In this document: one piece after another, positions 13,047 through 16,137 of the stretch
Numbering within the stretch: the stretch's first letter is position 1
Layout of the letters: every line of letters begins with the position of its first letter
From: a virus
DNA: 22,294 nucleotides
Strand: one strand, 5' to 3'
IMG/VR virus record: IMGVR_UViG_3300031839_000336
Coordinates: 1 to 22,294 of that record
Position numbers and translations under genes: made by a program
The notes under the pieces: generated by a model
Told to the model about the DNA's origin: nothing
Databases searched by the model: none
Seen by the model: only the letters and a program-made list of their open reading frames with translations

Positions 13047-13897
13047 TGGGTTACAAAGTATTAGGGGAGGTTAAGGACTTTGTAAAAGAAGTTTCTTCTG
13101 AACAAGTAGATAAACCTAGTTACAAAATATTAGGACAAGCTAAGGACTTTGCAACAGAAGTTGCTTCTACATTTATGACAGGGGCAAAAGAATTAGCAGG
13201 GCAAGCTAAGGAAGTTGCAGAGGATGCAGTAGAAGCAGCCCCTAAAGTAATAGAACAAGCTAAGGAAGCTTCTCAAACAGTAGGTAAAAGTTTTAAAGCC
13301 ATGACATCCACCCCTGTTACAATGATGTTAGATGACATATTTTTACCTACCCTTGGACGTAAAATTACAGAGAAAAACTTCTCCGAAGGAGCTAAAGACA
13401 TTCTTAGGAAAATTGTTATAGATAATAAACTTAGTCCCGGTGATAGTCTAAAGGTAGACTACGAAGACTTTAATAAATATGGGGCTAAAATGTCGGCCAA
13501 TTTTTTTGGAGGTATCAATGAAGATACTCAATCTTTTATTGGTAGGTTATCAGACCTTTCTCCTGCCGATGAAGTTAAGATGACACTTGGAGAAGCTCTA
13601 CTGAAAGTAGACAAAAAGGGTAACGTATCTGTTGAAGACCAGTATGATTTCAATAGCTGGACATTCTTTGGTAAAGGTAAAGATTCTAATGGTAAGTACA
13701 AAAATTTAACATCTGATGAGTTTGAAAAATCAGATATTACTTTTACTGAAGCCTTGAGAGACACCATTCAGAACAGCCCTTCTTCCTACCAGATGATGAG
13801 AAACCTAGCCTTCTTGTTTGGTAGCAGGGACTATGAGGATGATACAAGAGATACAGGACGTAAAGTTAATATTAAATTAGGAAAGGTAGAAAGATGA
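13046..13897 (+). CDS. Probable virion-associated protein with amphipathic repeat N-terminus
   Basis: The 283-residue protein overlaps the previous stop as TAATG. Residues 3-18 and 26-41 are near repeats ('YKVLGEVKDFVKEVSS' and 'YKILGQAKDFATEVAS'). They continue into an Ala/Lys/Glu-rich amphipathic stretch to about residue 90 with recurring 'QAKE' units. The C-terminal two thirds are globular, with aromatic and Gly/Asp-rich segments ('YDFNSWTFFGKG'), and the end is basic. I do not recognise a family. Its place after the ejection proteins, where T7 has the tail fibre, makes a virion or receptor-related role possible, but no fibre-like repeats are seen. No signal peptide or TM segment. Confidence 0.65.
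   Translation: MGYKVLGEVKDFVKEVSSEQVDKPSYKILGQAKDFATEVASTFMTGAKELAGQAKEVAEDAVEAAPKVIEQAKEASQTVGKSFKAMTSTPVTMMLDDIFLPTLGRKITEKNFSEGAKDILRKIVIDNKLSPGDSLKVDYEDFNKYGAKMSANFFGGINEDTQSFIGRLSDLSPADEVKMTLGEALLKVDKKGNVSVEDQYDFNSWTFFGKGKDSNGKYKNLTSDEFEKSDITFTEALRDTIQNSPSSYQMMRNLAFLFGSRDYEDDTRDTGRKVNIKLGKVER
13052..13168 (+). repeat. Imperfect 48-bp direct repeat inside the 283-residue protein gene
   Basis: The 48 bases at 13052-13099 recur at 13121-13168 with 8 mismatches by my count, 69 bases apart and in frame. The shared core includes TACAAA, TTAGG, TAAGGACTTT and GAAGTT. A shorter piece, CAAGCTAAGGA, appears three times (near 13136, 13202 and 13256). The pattern looks like an internal duplication that built the amphipathic N-terminus. 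Confidence 0.75.
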
Positions 13898-14121
13898 CAC
13901 CTGAGTGGCTCGACAAGTGGCGTATATGGCCTCGTCTAATTATCACCCTGTATGGTCTAGCTTTCTACCAAACAACTAACTGGTTTATGAACCTACCTGA
14001 CCCCACCAATGCACAGGCTGGTTTTGTTTCTGTCATTGTTGGTGCTGGGGCTGGATTCTTTGGGATATACGTCAATGGTAAAAACAGTAGCAATACTTCT
14101 TCTGGTAGTAGGTCTTCTTAG
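13894..14121 (+). CDS. Small two-TM membrane protein, holin candidate
   Basis: A 75-residue protein starting at the ATGA overlap with the upstream stop. The short N-terminus is charged ('MTPEWLDKWRIWPR'), followed by TM1 (about residues 14-32), a loop 'LPDPTNAQ', TM2 (about 42-60, Gly/Ala-rich) and a Ser-rich C-terminal tail. The 'PDPTNAQAGFVSVIVGAGAG' segment is a signature I associate with holin-annotated proteins of marine phages. Holins make the inner-membrane lesions that trigger lysis. The last 47 bases overlap the next gene in a different frame. Function is inferred from topology, resemblance and the neighbouring lipoprotein. Confidence 0.7.
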   Translation: MTPEWLDKWRIWPRLIITLYGLAFYQTTNWFMNLPDPTNAQAGFVSVIVGAGAGFFGIYVNGKNSSNTSSGSRSS

Positions 14122-14458
14122 TGGCTGTAGTCAACTTAATCCTCTAGGCTTCCTGTCTAGTGGCGGTACTAACGTAGCTGCAAACACTCAGATAGGCAAG
14201 ACTAACACTCAAACAGTTGGTACTACAAAGAACACTGAACAGAAGATAGTAGTAGAAACTCTAACTGGTGAAATTGAACAGTCTAACGATGACAATAAAG
14301 TTAGTACTGAGTCAGTAGATAACTTAACAATTAACGAAATCCCTCCATGGGTCATCCTCCTTCTAGTTCTTGGTTGGATGCTGCCTACTCCTCAAGAGAT
14401 GGGTAGAGGTCTTTTAAAAATAATAACACTAGGAAGATACCGTGGAAAACCAAACTGA
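14075..14458 (+). CDS. Lipoprotein with C-terminal TM segment, candidate unimolecular spanin
   Basis: The frame is open from an earlier ATG at 14009, but the ATG at 14075 gives a textbook lipoprotein signal: Lys3, a hydrophobic core, and lipobox 'LLSGC' with Cys18. The mature region is Thr/Asn/Gln-rich, with a hydrophobic segment at about residues 90-105 ('PPWVILLLVLGWML') and then a basic tail ending in 'GRYRGKPN'. An outer-membrane lipid anchor plus an inner-membrane C-terminal TM is the topology of u-spanins (phage T1 gp11 type), which fuse the two membranes at the end of lysis. The 127-residue length fits. It overlaps the holin candidate, a common arrangement for lysis genes. Confidence 0.6.
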   Translation: MVKTVAILLLVVGLLSGCSQLNPLGFLSSGGTNVAANTQIGKTNTQTVGTTKNTEQKIVVETLTGEIEQSNDDNKVSTESVDNLTINEIPPWVILLLVLGWMLPTPQEMGRGLLKIITLGRYRGKPN

Positions 14459-14717
14459 ATGGCACTTATCTAAATCTGTCCCTCTAACCTTTGTCGTGGC
14501 TATTTTTATTCAGACTGTATCGTTGGTGTGGTATGTGTCCTCAATGGATAATGCTATCAAGAACAACGAGAAAGAACTACTAAGGCAAGATGTACGTGTC
14601 AGTACACTAGAAGGTGTAGTACAAGCCCAAGCCCTTACTCTGGCTCGTATAGATGAGAACATAAAGTCTATTAGGGTTATGATGGAAAGGGTAGCCTACA
14701 AAGACGAAGCTCGGTAA
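14442..14717 (+). CDS. Single-TM plus coiled-coil membrane protein
   Basis: A 91-residue protein starting with GTG at 14442, preceded by AGGAAG 6 bases upstream and overlapping the previous gene by 17 bases. After 'WHLSKSVPLTFVVAIF' comes one TM helix (about residues 13-32). The remaining ~58 residues form a charged heptad-like helix ('IKNNEKELLRQDVRVSTLEG'). The topology resembles an i-spanin (Rz-like) or a small holin-associated protein. The start 'W-H-L-S-K-S-V-P' recurs, as I recall, in small phage membrane proteins near lysis genes. Its role beside the holin and spanin candidates is probably lysis-related, but that is inference. Confidence 0.65.
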   Translation: MENQTEWHLSKSVPLTFVVAIFIQTVSLVWYVSSMDNAIKNNEKELLRQDVRVSTLEGVVQAQALTLARIDENIKSIRVMMERVAYKDEAR

Positions 14718-15187
14718 TGGACCCTCTTAGCTGTATAGCAGCCGCCAGTACCGCATACACCGCCCTTAAGAAAGGCTTTGCTGTAGGCAAGGAGCTATCC
14801 TCAATGGGCACTCAGCTTCAGCAGTGGTCAAAGGCTCTGAGTGATCTTGACTTTGCACATGAGCAAGCATCTAAGCCACCCATGTACAAGATGTTTTCTG
14901 ACACACAATCTCAGGCACTAGAGGCTTGGTCAGCTAAACAACAGGCAACTCAGATGAGAGAGGAACTCCGTAGCCACATAAGTTTCGTGTACGGACCTTC
15001 GGCTTGGGACGAAATAGTACGTACTGAGGCTAGAATGCGTAAGGAACAACGAGAGTTGGTCTACAAGAAGAAAGAGTTTGTAGACAACTGCATCAACTGG
15101 TCGATAGGTATTCTTTTATTTCTCTCAGGTATAGCTGGTATTGCCTTGGTCTTTTACTTGGTAGGCAAACAACAAGGAAAGTGGTAA
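14717..15187 (+). CDS. Phage protein with C-terminal TM anchor
   Basis: The 156-residue product starts at a TAATG overlap. An N-terminal Ala-rich helical segment ('IAAASTAYTALKKGFAVGKE') leads to a charged helical middle with 'REELRSHISFVYGPSAWDEI' and an Arg/Lys/Glu-rich helix. A TM segment at about residues 130-150 ('SIGILLFLSGIAGIALVFYL') is followed by a short basic tail. I recall similar proteins, often labelled hypothetical, after the tail and lysis genes of many marine phages. Topology suggests a cytoplasmic body anchored in the inner membrane. It could be a lysis accessory or a virion-maturation protein; the sequence does not decide. Confidence 0.65.
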   Translation: MDPLSCIAAASTAYTALKKGFAVGKELSSMGTQLQQWSKALSDLDFAHEQASKPPMYKMFSDTQSQALEAWSAKQQATQMREELRSHISFVYGPSAWDEIVRTEARMRKEQRELVYKKKEFVDNCINWSIGILLFLSGIAGIALVFYLVGKQQGKW

Positions 15188-15435
15188 TGGCTAAAGTAGA
15201 TAAGTCAAAGATGAAGTGCAACAAACCTAGAAGCACACCTAATCACCCTAAGAAGTCTCATGTTGTCAAAGCATGTGAGGGTGGCAAGGAGAAGATCATT
15301 AGGTTTGGACAACAAGGTGTGAAGGGTAGTCCTAAGGGATCAGCCCGTAACAAATCATTCAAAGCTCGTCATGCCAAGAACATTAAGAAGGGTAAGATGA
15401 GTGCAGCATATTGGGCAAATAAGGTGAAGTGGTAA
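15187..15435 (+). CDS. Small basic phage protein (82 residues)
   Basis: The frame is open from a GTG at 15181, but the ATG at 15187 overlaps the upstream stop as TAATG, the same junction used by its neighbours, so this start is preferred. The product is Lys/Arg-rich, with 'PNHPKKSHVVKACEGG', 'KIIRFGQQGVKGSP' and 'SFKARHAKNIKKGKMSAAYW'. This is a conserved unnamed family in marine phages by my recollection. It is likely nucleic-acid-binding or packaged in the virion, judging only by charge. First member of a five-gene run of small basic proteins. Confidence 0.7.
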   Translation: MAKVDKSKMKCNKPRSTPNHPKKSHVVKACEGGKEKIIRFGQQGVKGSPKGSARNKSFKARHAKNIKKGKMSAAYWANKVKW

Positions 15436-15436
15436 A

Positions 15437-15610
15437 ATGGCAGCTCCTACTCCTACAAACAGAGCATTGTATAGTCGTGTGAAGACTGAAGCTAAACGTA
15501 AATTCAAGGTTTGGCCTAGTGCTTATGCCTCAGCTTGGCTCACCCGTGAGTACAAGAAACGGGGTGGTAAGTACAGTGGTACTACTGCAAACAAGGTGAG
15601 GAAGAAGTAA
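15437..15610 (+). CDS. Small basic protein (57 residues)
   Basis: A short gene starting one base after the previous stop (TAAAATG), with AGGTGAAGTGG upstream as a possible ribosome site. The translated product starts 'MAAPTPTNRALYSRVKTEAK' and contains 'PSAYASAWLTREYKKRGGKY', a motif found in small DUF5872-like phage and giant-virus proteins. It ends in 'KVRKK'. The motif plus a conserved Tyr/Trp pattern argues for a folded mini-domain and not a chance ORF. No function known. Its stop overlaps the next start as TAATG. Confidence 0.72.
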   Translation: MAAPTPTNRALYSRVKTEAKRKFKVWPSAYASAWLTREYKKRGGKYSGTTANKVRKK

Positions 15611-15780
15611 TGGCTAAGGGTGTAAAACATTATTTAAGAGATGGTACAGAGCATAAAGGTGGTATGCACAAGATGCCAAATGGTCAGATGCATTCAGGTA
15701 AGACACACGGTAAAACCAGTAAACGTCTATACCACTTTAAAGACCTGAGTGCTACATCAAAGAAGAAGGCTAAGAAGTAA
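15610..15780 (+). CDS. Small His/Lys-rich protein (56 residues)
   Basis: A gene joined by TAATG to both neighbours. The product begins 'MAKGVKHYLRDGTEHKGGMH', continues with 'KMPNGQMHSGKTHGKTSK' and 'RLYHFKDLS', and ends in a Lys run. Seven His residues in 56 could allow metal binding, but they are not arranged as a known zinc finger. The 'YLRDGTEHKGGMHKMPNG' part matches a small-protein family I recall from marine phages, next to DUF5872-like genes. Function unknown. Confidence 0.7.
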   Translation: MAKGVKHYLRDGTEHKGGMHKMPNGQMHSGKTHGKTSKRLYHFKDLSATSKKKAKK

Positions 15781-16001
15781 TGGCTAAAGGTGGGCTAGGT
15801 AAGTGGTTTGGTGAACAGTGGGTAGATGTCAAAACTGGTAAGCCATGTGGACGTAAGAGTGCTAAGAATAGTAAACGTCCTTATCCAGCTTGTAGGCCAA
15901 AGGCTGTGGCTGGTAGTATAAGTAAGAAAGAAGCTCGAAAGAAAACAGGACCAAAGAAAGTTAAGTGGTCTACAACTGCATCAGGGAAGAAAAGGAAATA
16001 A
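15780..16001 (+). CDS. Small basic protein, DUF5872-like (73 residues)
   Basis: A TAATG-coupled gene. The N-terminus 'MAKGGLGKWFGEQWVDVKTG' followed by 'KPCGRKSAKNSKRPYPACRP' is the signature I associate with DUF5872-like phage proteins: a 'GKWF..QWVDV' start and two Cys in 'PCGR' and 'PACRP'. The C-terminus is Lys/Gly-rich and probably disordered. The Cys pair and Trp residues suggest a small folded head with a basic tail. No biochemical role is known to me; DNA condensation or a virion role is a guess from charge. Confidence 0.75.
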   Translation: MAKGGLGKWFGEQWVDVKTGKPCGRKSAKNSKRPYPACRPKAVAGSISKKEARKKTGPKKVKWSTTASGKKRK

Positions 16002-16003
16002 CT

Positions 16004-16099
16004 ATGCCATACAAAAAAGGAAAAGTTAAGCCATACGAGTCTAAGACTAAGACTCCAATGAAACCTAAGAAGAAGCCAATGAAAAAGAAGAAGAAGTAA
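16004..16099 (+). CDS. Lys-rich micro-protein (31 residues)
   Basis: An ATG at 16004 lies two bases after the previous stop, with AAAGGAAAT just upstream. It encodes 31 residues, 15 of them Lys, in 'KPYESKTKTP' and 'MKPKKKPMKKKKK' blocks. The stop is directly before the transcription terminator, so it is the last gene of the + strand arm. Translation is supported by spacing and ribosome site, but a peptide this simple could be a decayed or non-functional end. If made, it would bind nucleic acid strongly. Confidence 0.55.
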   Translation: MPYKKGKVKPYESKTKTPMKPKKKPMKKKKK

Positions 16100-16106
16100 T
16101 AAAGTT

Positions 16107-16137
16107 AAAGCCCCAAGGAGAAATCCAAGGGGCTTTT
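16107..16137. terminator. Bidirectional intrinsic terminator between convergent arms
   Basis: AAAGCCCC (16107-16114) pairs with GGGGCTTT (16129-16136). Inside, GGA (16117-16119) and TCC (16124-16126) pair around a GAAA tetraloop, separated by an AA/AA internal loop. TTTTCTTTT follows on the + strand, giving a strong intrinsic terminator for the structural/lysis arm. On the - strand the same hairpin ends in GGGGCTTTAACTTT, so it can also stop transcription from the nucleotide-metabolism arm. It sits 8 bases after the last + gene and 10 bases before the last - gene's stop. Confidence 0.85.

Follow-up and report, generated by a model that had tools for sequence, protein, structure and literature searches.

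Five small, strongly basic genes, designated A to E, form a cassette (15187-16099, all on the + strand) at the end of the late operon of a marine phage, and conserved linkage together with fusion of the same domains in other phages lends good support to the view that they act as a set. The window analysed here is the whole stretch of 22,294 nucleotides from IMG/VR record IMGVR_UViG_3300031839_000336. Our preferred reading, held tentatively and with a probability of roughly 0.4, is that the products are a modular set of nucleic-acid-binding proteins for packaging or condensation of the genome, like the internal proteins of T4. Most of the genes belong to little-known small families whose recurrent association or fusion beside capsid and packaging genes of aquatic viruses suggests joint action on viral DNA. 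DNA binding by A to E is suggested by their charge; residence in the virion is suggested by one relative detected by proteomics, and the proteins may condense the DNA there.

The cassette consists of gene A (15187-15435; 82 aa), gene B (15437-15610; 57 aa), gene C (15610-15780; 56 aa), gene D (15780-16001; 73 aa) and gene E (16004-16099; 31 aa, 15 of them Lys). The junctions are of the TAATG type before A and at B/C and C/D, with gaps of 1 base between A and B and of 2 bases between D and E; as further TAATG joints occur at 1882, 2613, 13046 and 14717, such coupling is ordinary in this window. All five products are rich in Lys and Arg (K+R fraction 0.27-0.48, pI 10.4-10.9, net charge per residue +0.21 to +0.45), and no other of the 28 window genes compared is as positively charged as any of them. 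A strong hairpin at ~16107-16136 (folding energy -19.1 kcal/mol on the + strand and -19.4 on the - strand; z -3.9 and -4.5) is a probable bidirectional rho-independent terminator between convergent arms; it is not among the terminators returned by a simple scan of the window. The preliminary description of this DNA had already given the layout, sizes and junctions, the basic character, the Lys content of about one half in E and a terminator after the cassette, and all of these are borne out by the ORF coordinates, charge comparison and folding energies.

Spanin-like and other small genes precede the cassette, which in the window comes behind the lysis genes and outside the capsid block. The spanin-like gene (14009-14458; phrog_1804, phrog_30566) overlaps a 75-aa gene at 13894-14121. 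Directly upstream of A is a gene of 156 aa (14717-15187, +; phrog_32327) with a C-terminal hydrophobic segment and a stop that overlaps the start of A; it has relatives in 18/82 loci with B or D and may belong to the neighbourhood. The opposite arm, which converges at the hairpin, carries ribonucleotide reductase, ThyX and glutaredoxin-like genes, labels that come from reading the ORF translations and from features named in DNA matches. The best DNA matches of the window are roseophages (major capsid protein [MCP] 73% to ICBM2, ribonucleotide reductase region 77% to CRP-4), and the cobavirus ICBM2 has the same layout: its late arm carries an A homologue close to its end, with a single gene between this homologue's position and an annotated bidirectional terminator counted as the next step.

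Genes A to D are under purifying selection. Compared with homologues at 70-97% nucleotide identity, they differ mainly at third codon positions (first/second/third: A 612/547/1881, B 69/72/216, C 665/457/2057, D 1278/1015/4129), and the median NG86 dN/dS is 0.087 for A, 0.149 for B, 0.086 for C and 0.079 for D, in 56, 10, 85 and 121 comparisons, respectively, which include redundant loci and are thus non-independent. A lack of conservation in the small frames, which had been named as an argument against the proposal, is not what is found for A to D, with their third-position bias and median dN/dS of 0.079-0.149. E is conserved in near relatives only: it occurs in 8 sequences including the window, which all belong to one 100-mer cluster and to contigs of the L001, L002 and L161 type, with in-frame length changes between the window, L001 and L002. 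Lys-rich ORFs of the MPYKNGKK type follow D at three other loci (L006, L027 and L066), with a looser one at L021, and in 35/81 loci the cassette is followed by a small basic ORF of some kind, these E-like peptides included; a tblastn search with the E-like peptide from L027 found no match in phages. The suggestion that such genes are missed by gene callers has examples in phage SIO1, where A is unannotated (L422 3001-3240), and in DSL-LC04, where D is (L320 4182-4412). In CRP-2, the annotated coding sequence is out of frame relative to the D match (L423 2317-2532).

Linkage was assessed in IMG/VR scans that used D, A, B and C as seeds, with the best 80 hits taken for each, so that the frequencies are those of close relatives. 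Among the matches listed, D-seeded non-redundant clusters contained B in 31/31, A in 25/31 and C in 6/31, and B-seeded ones contained D in 31/31, A in 24/31 and C in 7/31. C-seeded clusters had B in 23/49, D in 27/49 and A in 24/49, and A-seeded clusters had B in 7/74, D in 10/74 and C in 6/74, with 64/74 lacking D, again among the matches listed. These counts indicate that B and D are a unit, that A usually accompanies them but is widespread alone, and hence also works without them, and that C is a frequent guest. The commonest patterns in the 166 non-redundant clusters, among the matches listed, were A alone (59), ABD (26), C alone (13), CA (11), ACBD (9) and BD (8). Both B and D were present in 72 of the 82 clusters with either (among the matches listed), B only in 1 and D only in 9; with profiles rebuilt on more loci, D stood without B only at one locus (L268), which starts 12 nt before D. 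In most cases 4-60 bases separate B from the following D, and gene order shuffles between clusters (ABD, ACBD, ABDC, BDCA). No family matches on opposite strands were found in the non-redundant clusters of the four seed sets, nor in 80 loci seeded by the D protein of P-SCSP2 (P0002), among the matches listed in each case. In this more distant, P-SCSP2-D-seeded set, DUF6321 takes the place of A: among the matches listed, B was present in 74/80 loci, DUF6321 in 68/80, A in 1 and A or DUF6321 in 69/80 (by cluster, B 14/15 and A or DUF6321 12/15), and in the 6 loci without B, no more than 270 nt separate D from the start of the locus.

The proposal that the genes act as a set is upheld by this conserved clustering on one strand, together with the fusions described below, and scattered occurrence in unrelated contexts, which would speak against it, is not the pattern of B and D. 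Two further small families were observed at these loci. A basic Gly/Met/Lys-rich family (KKMGY...GGM...GASNPAERPMK) occurs in 24/82 loci with B or D, just after D or C (L315, L022, L024, L242 and others), and a very basic 81-aa family with an HNH-like stretch, DGKDVHHKDGNPKNNKSSNL, lies upstream of the cassette at L172 844-1107 and at 10 other loci.

B and D correspond to two halves of one named domain family, DUF5872 (PF19197). B matches profile positions 1-49 with 44 bits (41 bits in a six-frame search), over the gathering cut-off of 27.5, and D matches positions 53-107 with 23.2 bits (E 1.1e-4), below that cut-off; the P-SCSP2 homologue of D reaches 53.3 bits. No ORF with both B and D matches was found among 411 sequences, so a single-polypeptide form of DUF5872 was not seen in that set. 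A scan for the D pattern across 84,980 prokaryote species, with a single genome per species, gave 6 loci, so that D is essentially viral.

A belongs to phrog_7595, which it matches over its full length (109.8 bits, profile 9-96 of 96), and is found in 49 phage records. The window protein itself has no Pfam match, including to DUF5754 (cut-off 27.4 bits) and DUF6321 (cut-off 28.5 bits), and its weak likeness to DUF5754/Tlr6F (PF19058) and DUF6321 (PF19846) runs through its relatives. DUF5754 is matched by 18/55 A members at E <= 0.1, over the cut-off only in the A region of the contig L404 (38.6 bits), and DUF6321 by 10/55 at E <= 0.1 (best 0.003). With three A ORFs matching the DUF6321 profile as well, hhalign of A against DUF6321 gave 93.7%; leaving out these 3 shared rows lowered the figure to 49.5% (20 columns); profile comparison of A or DUF6321 with B, C and D gave <1% throughout. 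Kinship of A and DUF6321 is, on these alignments, likely. Two other labels for A were considered. PF23980 ('tail tube initiator') was matched by 10/55 members (best E 1.4e-4); a closer look at 10 members gave four matches, of 12.7-14.5 bits against a cut-off of 27, and it was dropped; phrog_220 ('DNA pilot'; A 13.4 bits, L404 A region 31.7 bits) was left unused, as the origin of that name is uncertain. C, with its GTEHKGGMHKMPNGQ-type motif, occurs in part of the cassettes only, and neither C nor E had a family match in Pfam- or PHROG-type profile searches. The preliminary description had spoken of unnamed small families, a term that still suits C but has to be given up for B (over the cut-off) and D (below it), which match DUF5872, and qualified for A, which weakly resembles DUF5754/Tlr6F via its relatives.

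The same domains are found fused in other phages. A 337-aa T4-GC_119 protein of S-BM3 matches DUF6321 (82 bits) and B (21.6 bits, below cut-off) and has an N-terminal D-like stretch (WF...W...C...C) with a weak match to phrog_23735 (18.4 bits). The T4-GC_119 proteins of P-SSM2 and S-SM1 carry B and DUF6321 in one chain, and a D-like N-terminal stretch was recognised in them by eye. B in the P-SSM2 protein scores 21.3 bits (i-E 2e-7) with a profile that predates the addition of those records, the higher B scores in cyanomyovirus fusions coming from a profile that had absorbed their rows. In L404 (2951-8229), a 692-aa ORF joins B and DUF5754/A in one protein, D being in the preceding ORF. That ORF, of 1034 aa, combines DUF5872 (54.5 bits, D) with LysM and YkuD (L,D-transpeptidase) domains and is itself preceded by a 918-aa match to virion-structural PHROGs. 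L404 is a crAss-like contig, a protein of which resembles crAss-like phage proteins in tblastn. The stretches of crAss001 and phi14:2 that were searched contained no A, B, D or DUF6321 and one chance-level C match (8.2 bits), and a link of the L404 proteins to crAss cargo proteins is not claimed.

The identifiable neighbours of the relatives are head and packaging genes. Ten large neighbours from ten loci comprised three terminase large subunits, two scaffold proteins and five without a functional name. In named phages, relatives adjoin the scaffold and MCP (P-SCSP2), cement and adaptor genes (DSL-LC04) or the terminase small subunit (S-BM3, P-SSM2 and S-CREM2), with MCP and tail tube genes also among the neighbours.

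Proteomics of relatives is divided. S-CREM2 ORF137, which carries DUF6321 without B and D and is acidic overall, was detected in purified virions with 4 unique peptides and 4.1% coverage (PMC10665884). Its neighbour ORF136 (L329 4302-5015), a basic protein of 237 aa (pI 10) with no family over cut-off, was found in the virions with 8 peptides (same paper). S-SZBM1_192, a basic DUF6321 protein of 165 aa, is not among the 30 virion proteins in Table 1 of PMC9146016. It was equated with PP650_gp084 by counting gene order and lengths. Trypsin cuts Lys-rich peptides too small, so that absence from standard proteomics is weak evidence. Virions of S-SM1 were analysed by mass spectrometry (passages of PMC3037559), and the S-SM1 fusion protein SSM1_115 is labelled only 'hypothetical' in its record; the notes 'similar to Synechococcus phage S-SM1 protein' on PSSM2_123 and PSSM4_160 were for that reason dropped as virion evidence. 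The cryo-EM passages on P-SCSP1u do not name the product of its DUF6321 gene, and the passages searched on P-SCSP1u and P-SSP7 yielded no virion evidence. Passages of PMC9602691, PMC10172136, PMC6775973, PMC3671162, PMC8547959, PMC10575957, PMC9860041 and PMC13002823 were also covered.

An AlphaFold2 model of A (pLDDT 86.7, pTM 0.73) has a beta-hairpin and three helices, and D was modelled at pLDDT 77.3. PDB fold searches with the two models gave no match and no DNA-binding fold, and no useful match came from PDB sequence searches with A, B, C, D and the L404 protein. Among 182 unique A sequences, 62 have two N-terminal Cys, 120 have neither of them and none has a single one (4 further, unreadable sequences were left out); there were 4 joint changes on the tree (sign test p 0.125). 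D has two Cys, C23 and C38, that are invariant in a 55-row alignment. These patterns would fit disulphides or paired metal ligands; a zinc-binding reading of D and DUF6321 would have Cys pairs to draw on.

Several observations count against an internal-protein role: the models show no DNA-binding fold, S-SZBM1_192 is missing from the listed virion proteins, A is mostly found without B and D, and the window cassette follows the lysis genes instead of lying in the capsid block. The low coverage of S-CREM2 ORF137, its acidity and its lack of B and D weigh in the same direction, as do the 'hypothetical' label of SSM1_115, the silence of the P-SCSP1u passages on the DUF6321 product and the absence of the families from the crAss001 and phi14:2 stretches. 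The strongest alternative, which we consider somewhat unlikely, is that the proteins are accessory factors of assembly or packaging that bind terminase, portal or DNA transiently and are absent from the virion. That relatives repeatedly adjoin genes for terminase subunits, scaffold and adaptor would suit such factors, as would the unlisted DUF6321 relative of S-SZBM1; detection of S-CREM2 ORF137 in virions argues the other way, and the making of several basic peptides together may point to a stoichiometric and not a catalytic role.

A role in the cell unrelated to the particle, as late host-takeover or RNA- or ribosome-binding proteins, is unlikely. Charge fits RNA as well as DNA, and in both the window and ICBM2 the genes close the late arm, directly behind the lysis genes and outside the capsid block, but other lineages have them within the head and packaging block, and D occurs within a large LysM and L,D-transpeptidase protein beside a virion-structural protein. 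It is very improbable that unrelated small genes have merely piled up at an operon end with neutral linkage. C varies in place and is often absent, E is local and gene order shuffles, as such a process would predict; for A, B and D it was already disfavoured, given the B-D linkage of 31/31 from either seed (among the matches listed), dN/dS of about 0.1 and the distant fusions.

If the proteins are indeed a packaging or condensation set, the cassette would be the separate-gene form of modular, virus-specific basic domains, the modules being A (Tlr6F/DUF5754-like, probably DUF6321-related), B and D (halves of DUF5872), C and the Lys-rich tail peptide E. They would be made together late, within the block of head, packaging and lysis genes, would most likely bind phage DNA jointly during head filling, and may then remain on it, condensing it or serving as internal proteins like those of T4. 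A broader and rather doubtful extension is that Tlr6F/DUF6321, split DUF5872 and Lys-rich tails are a shared toolkit, separate or fused, that travels with DNA in the virions of phages, giant viruses and polinton-like viruses, with the Cys pairs locking it in the oxidising particle. The families were already known as DUFs; the cassette and their unification appear to be new. A literature search that took in few subscription journals and preprints found the cassette undescribed and DUF5872, DUF6321 and DUF5754/Tlr6F not linked. Joining DUF6321, split DUF5872 and the Tlr6F-like gene into a single functional set makes the role of these virus-wide proteins testable in small cultivated phages, such as the cobaviruses and the Roseobacter phages CRP-207 and CRP-2, both of which carry A, B and D; the A and D cases show that gene callers lose or truncate them.

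Comparison with known systems places the cassette as follows. Tlr6F/DUF5754, to which A is related through intermediate sequences, is a small protein conserved in polinton-like viruses, virophages, giant viruses and some phages (passages of PMC4642659 and PMC12220804), which a 2015 paper called important and conserved in a diversity of viruses, with no known function (PMC4642659). DUF5872, named in a haptophyte giant virus with no function given in the passages of PMC12085832, is in Pfam one family of 116 positions, whereas the window has two genes in its place, separated by C. The T4-GC_119 proteins of cyanomyoviruses (DUF6321; phrog_727, phrog_3477), encoded near gp15/gp16 or between gp16 and gp17, unite B, DUF6321 and a D-like stretch much as the cassette does, but in one polypeptide, with a changed domain order and with DUF6321 instead of A. 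The T4 internal proteins IPI-IPIII, likewise small and basic, are made late and accompany the DNA in the head, and internal head proteins of the T4 type are processed by the prohead protease.
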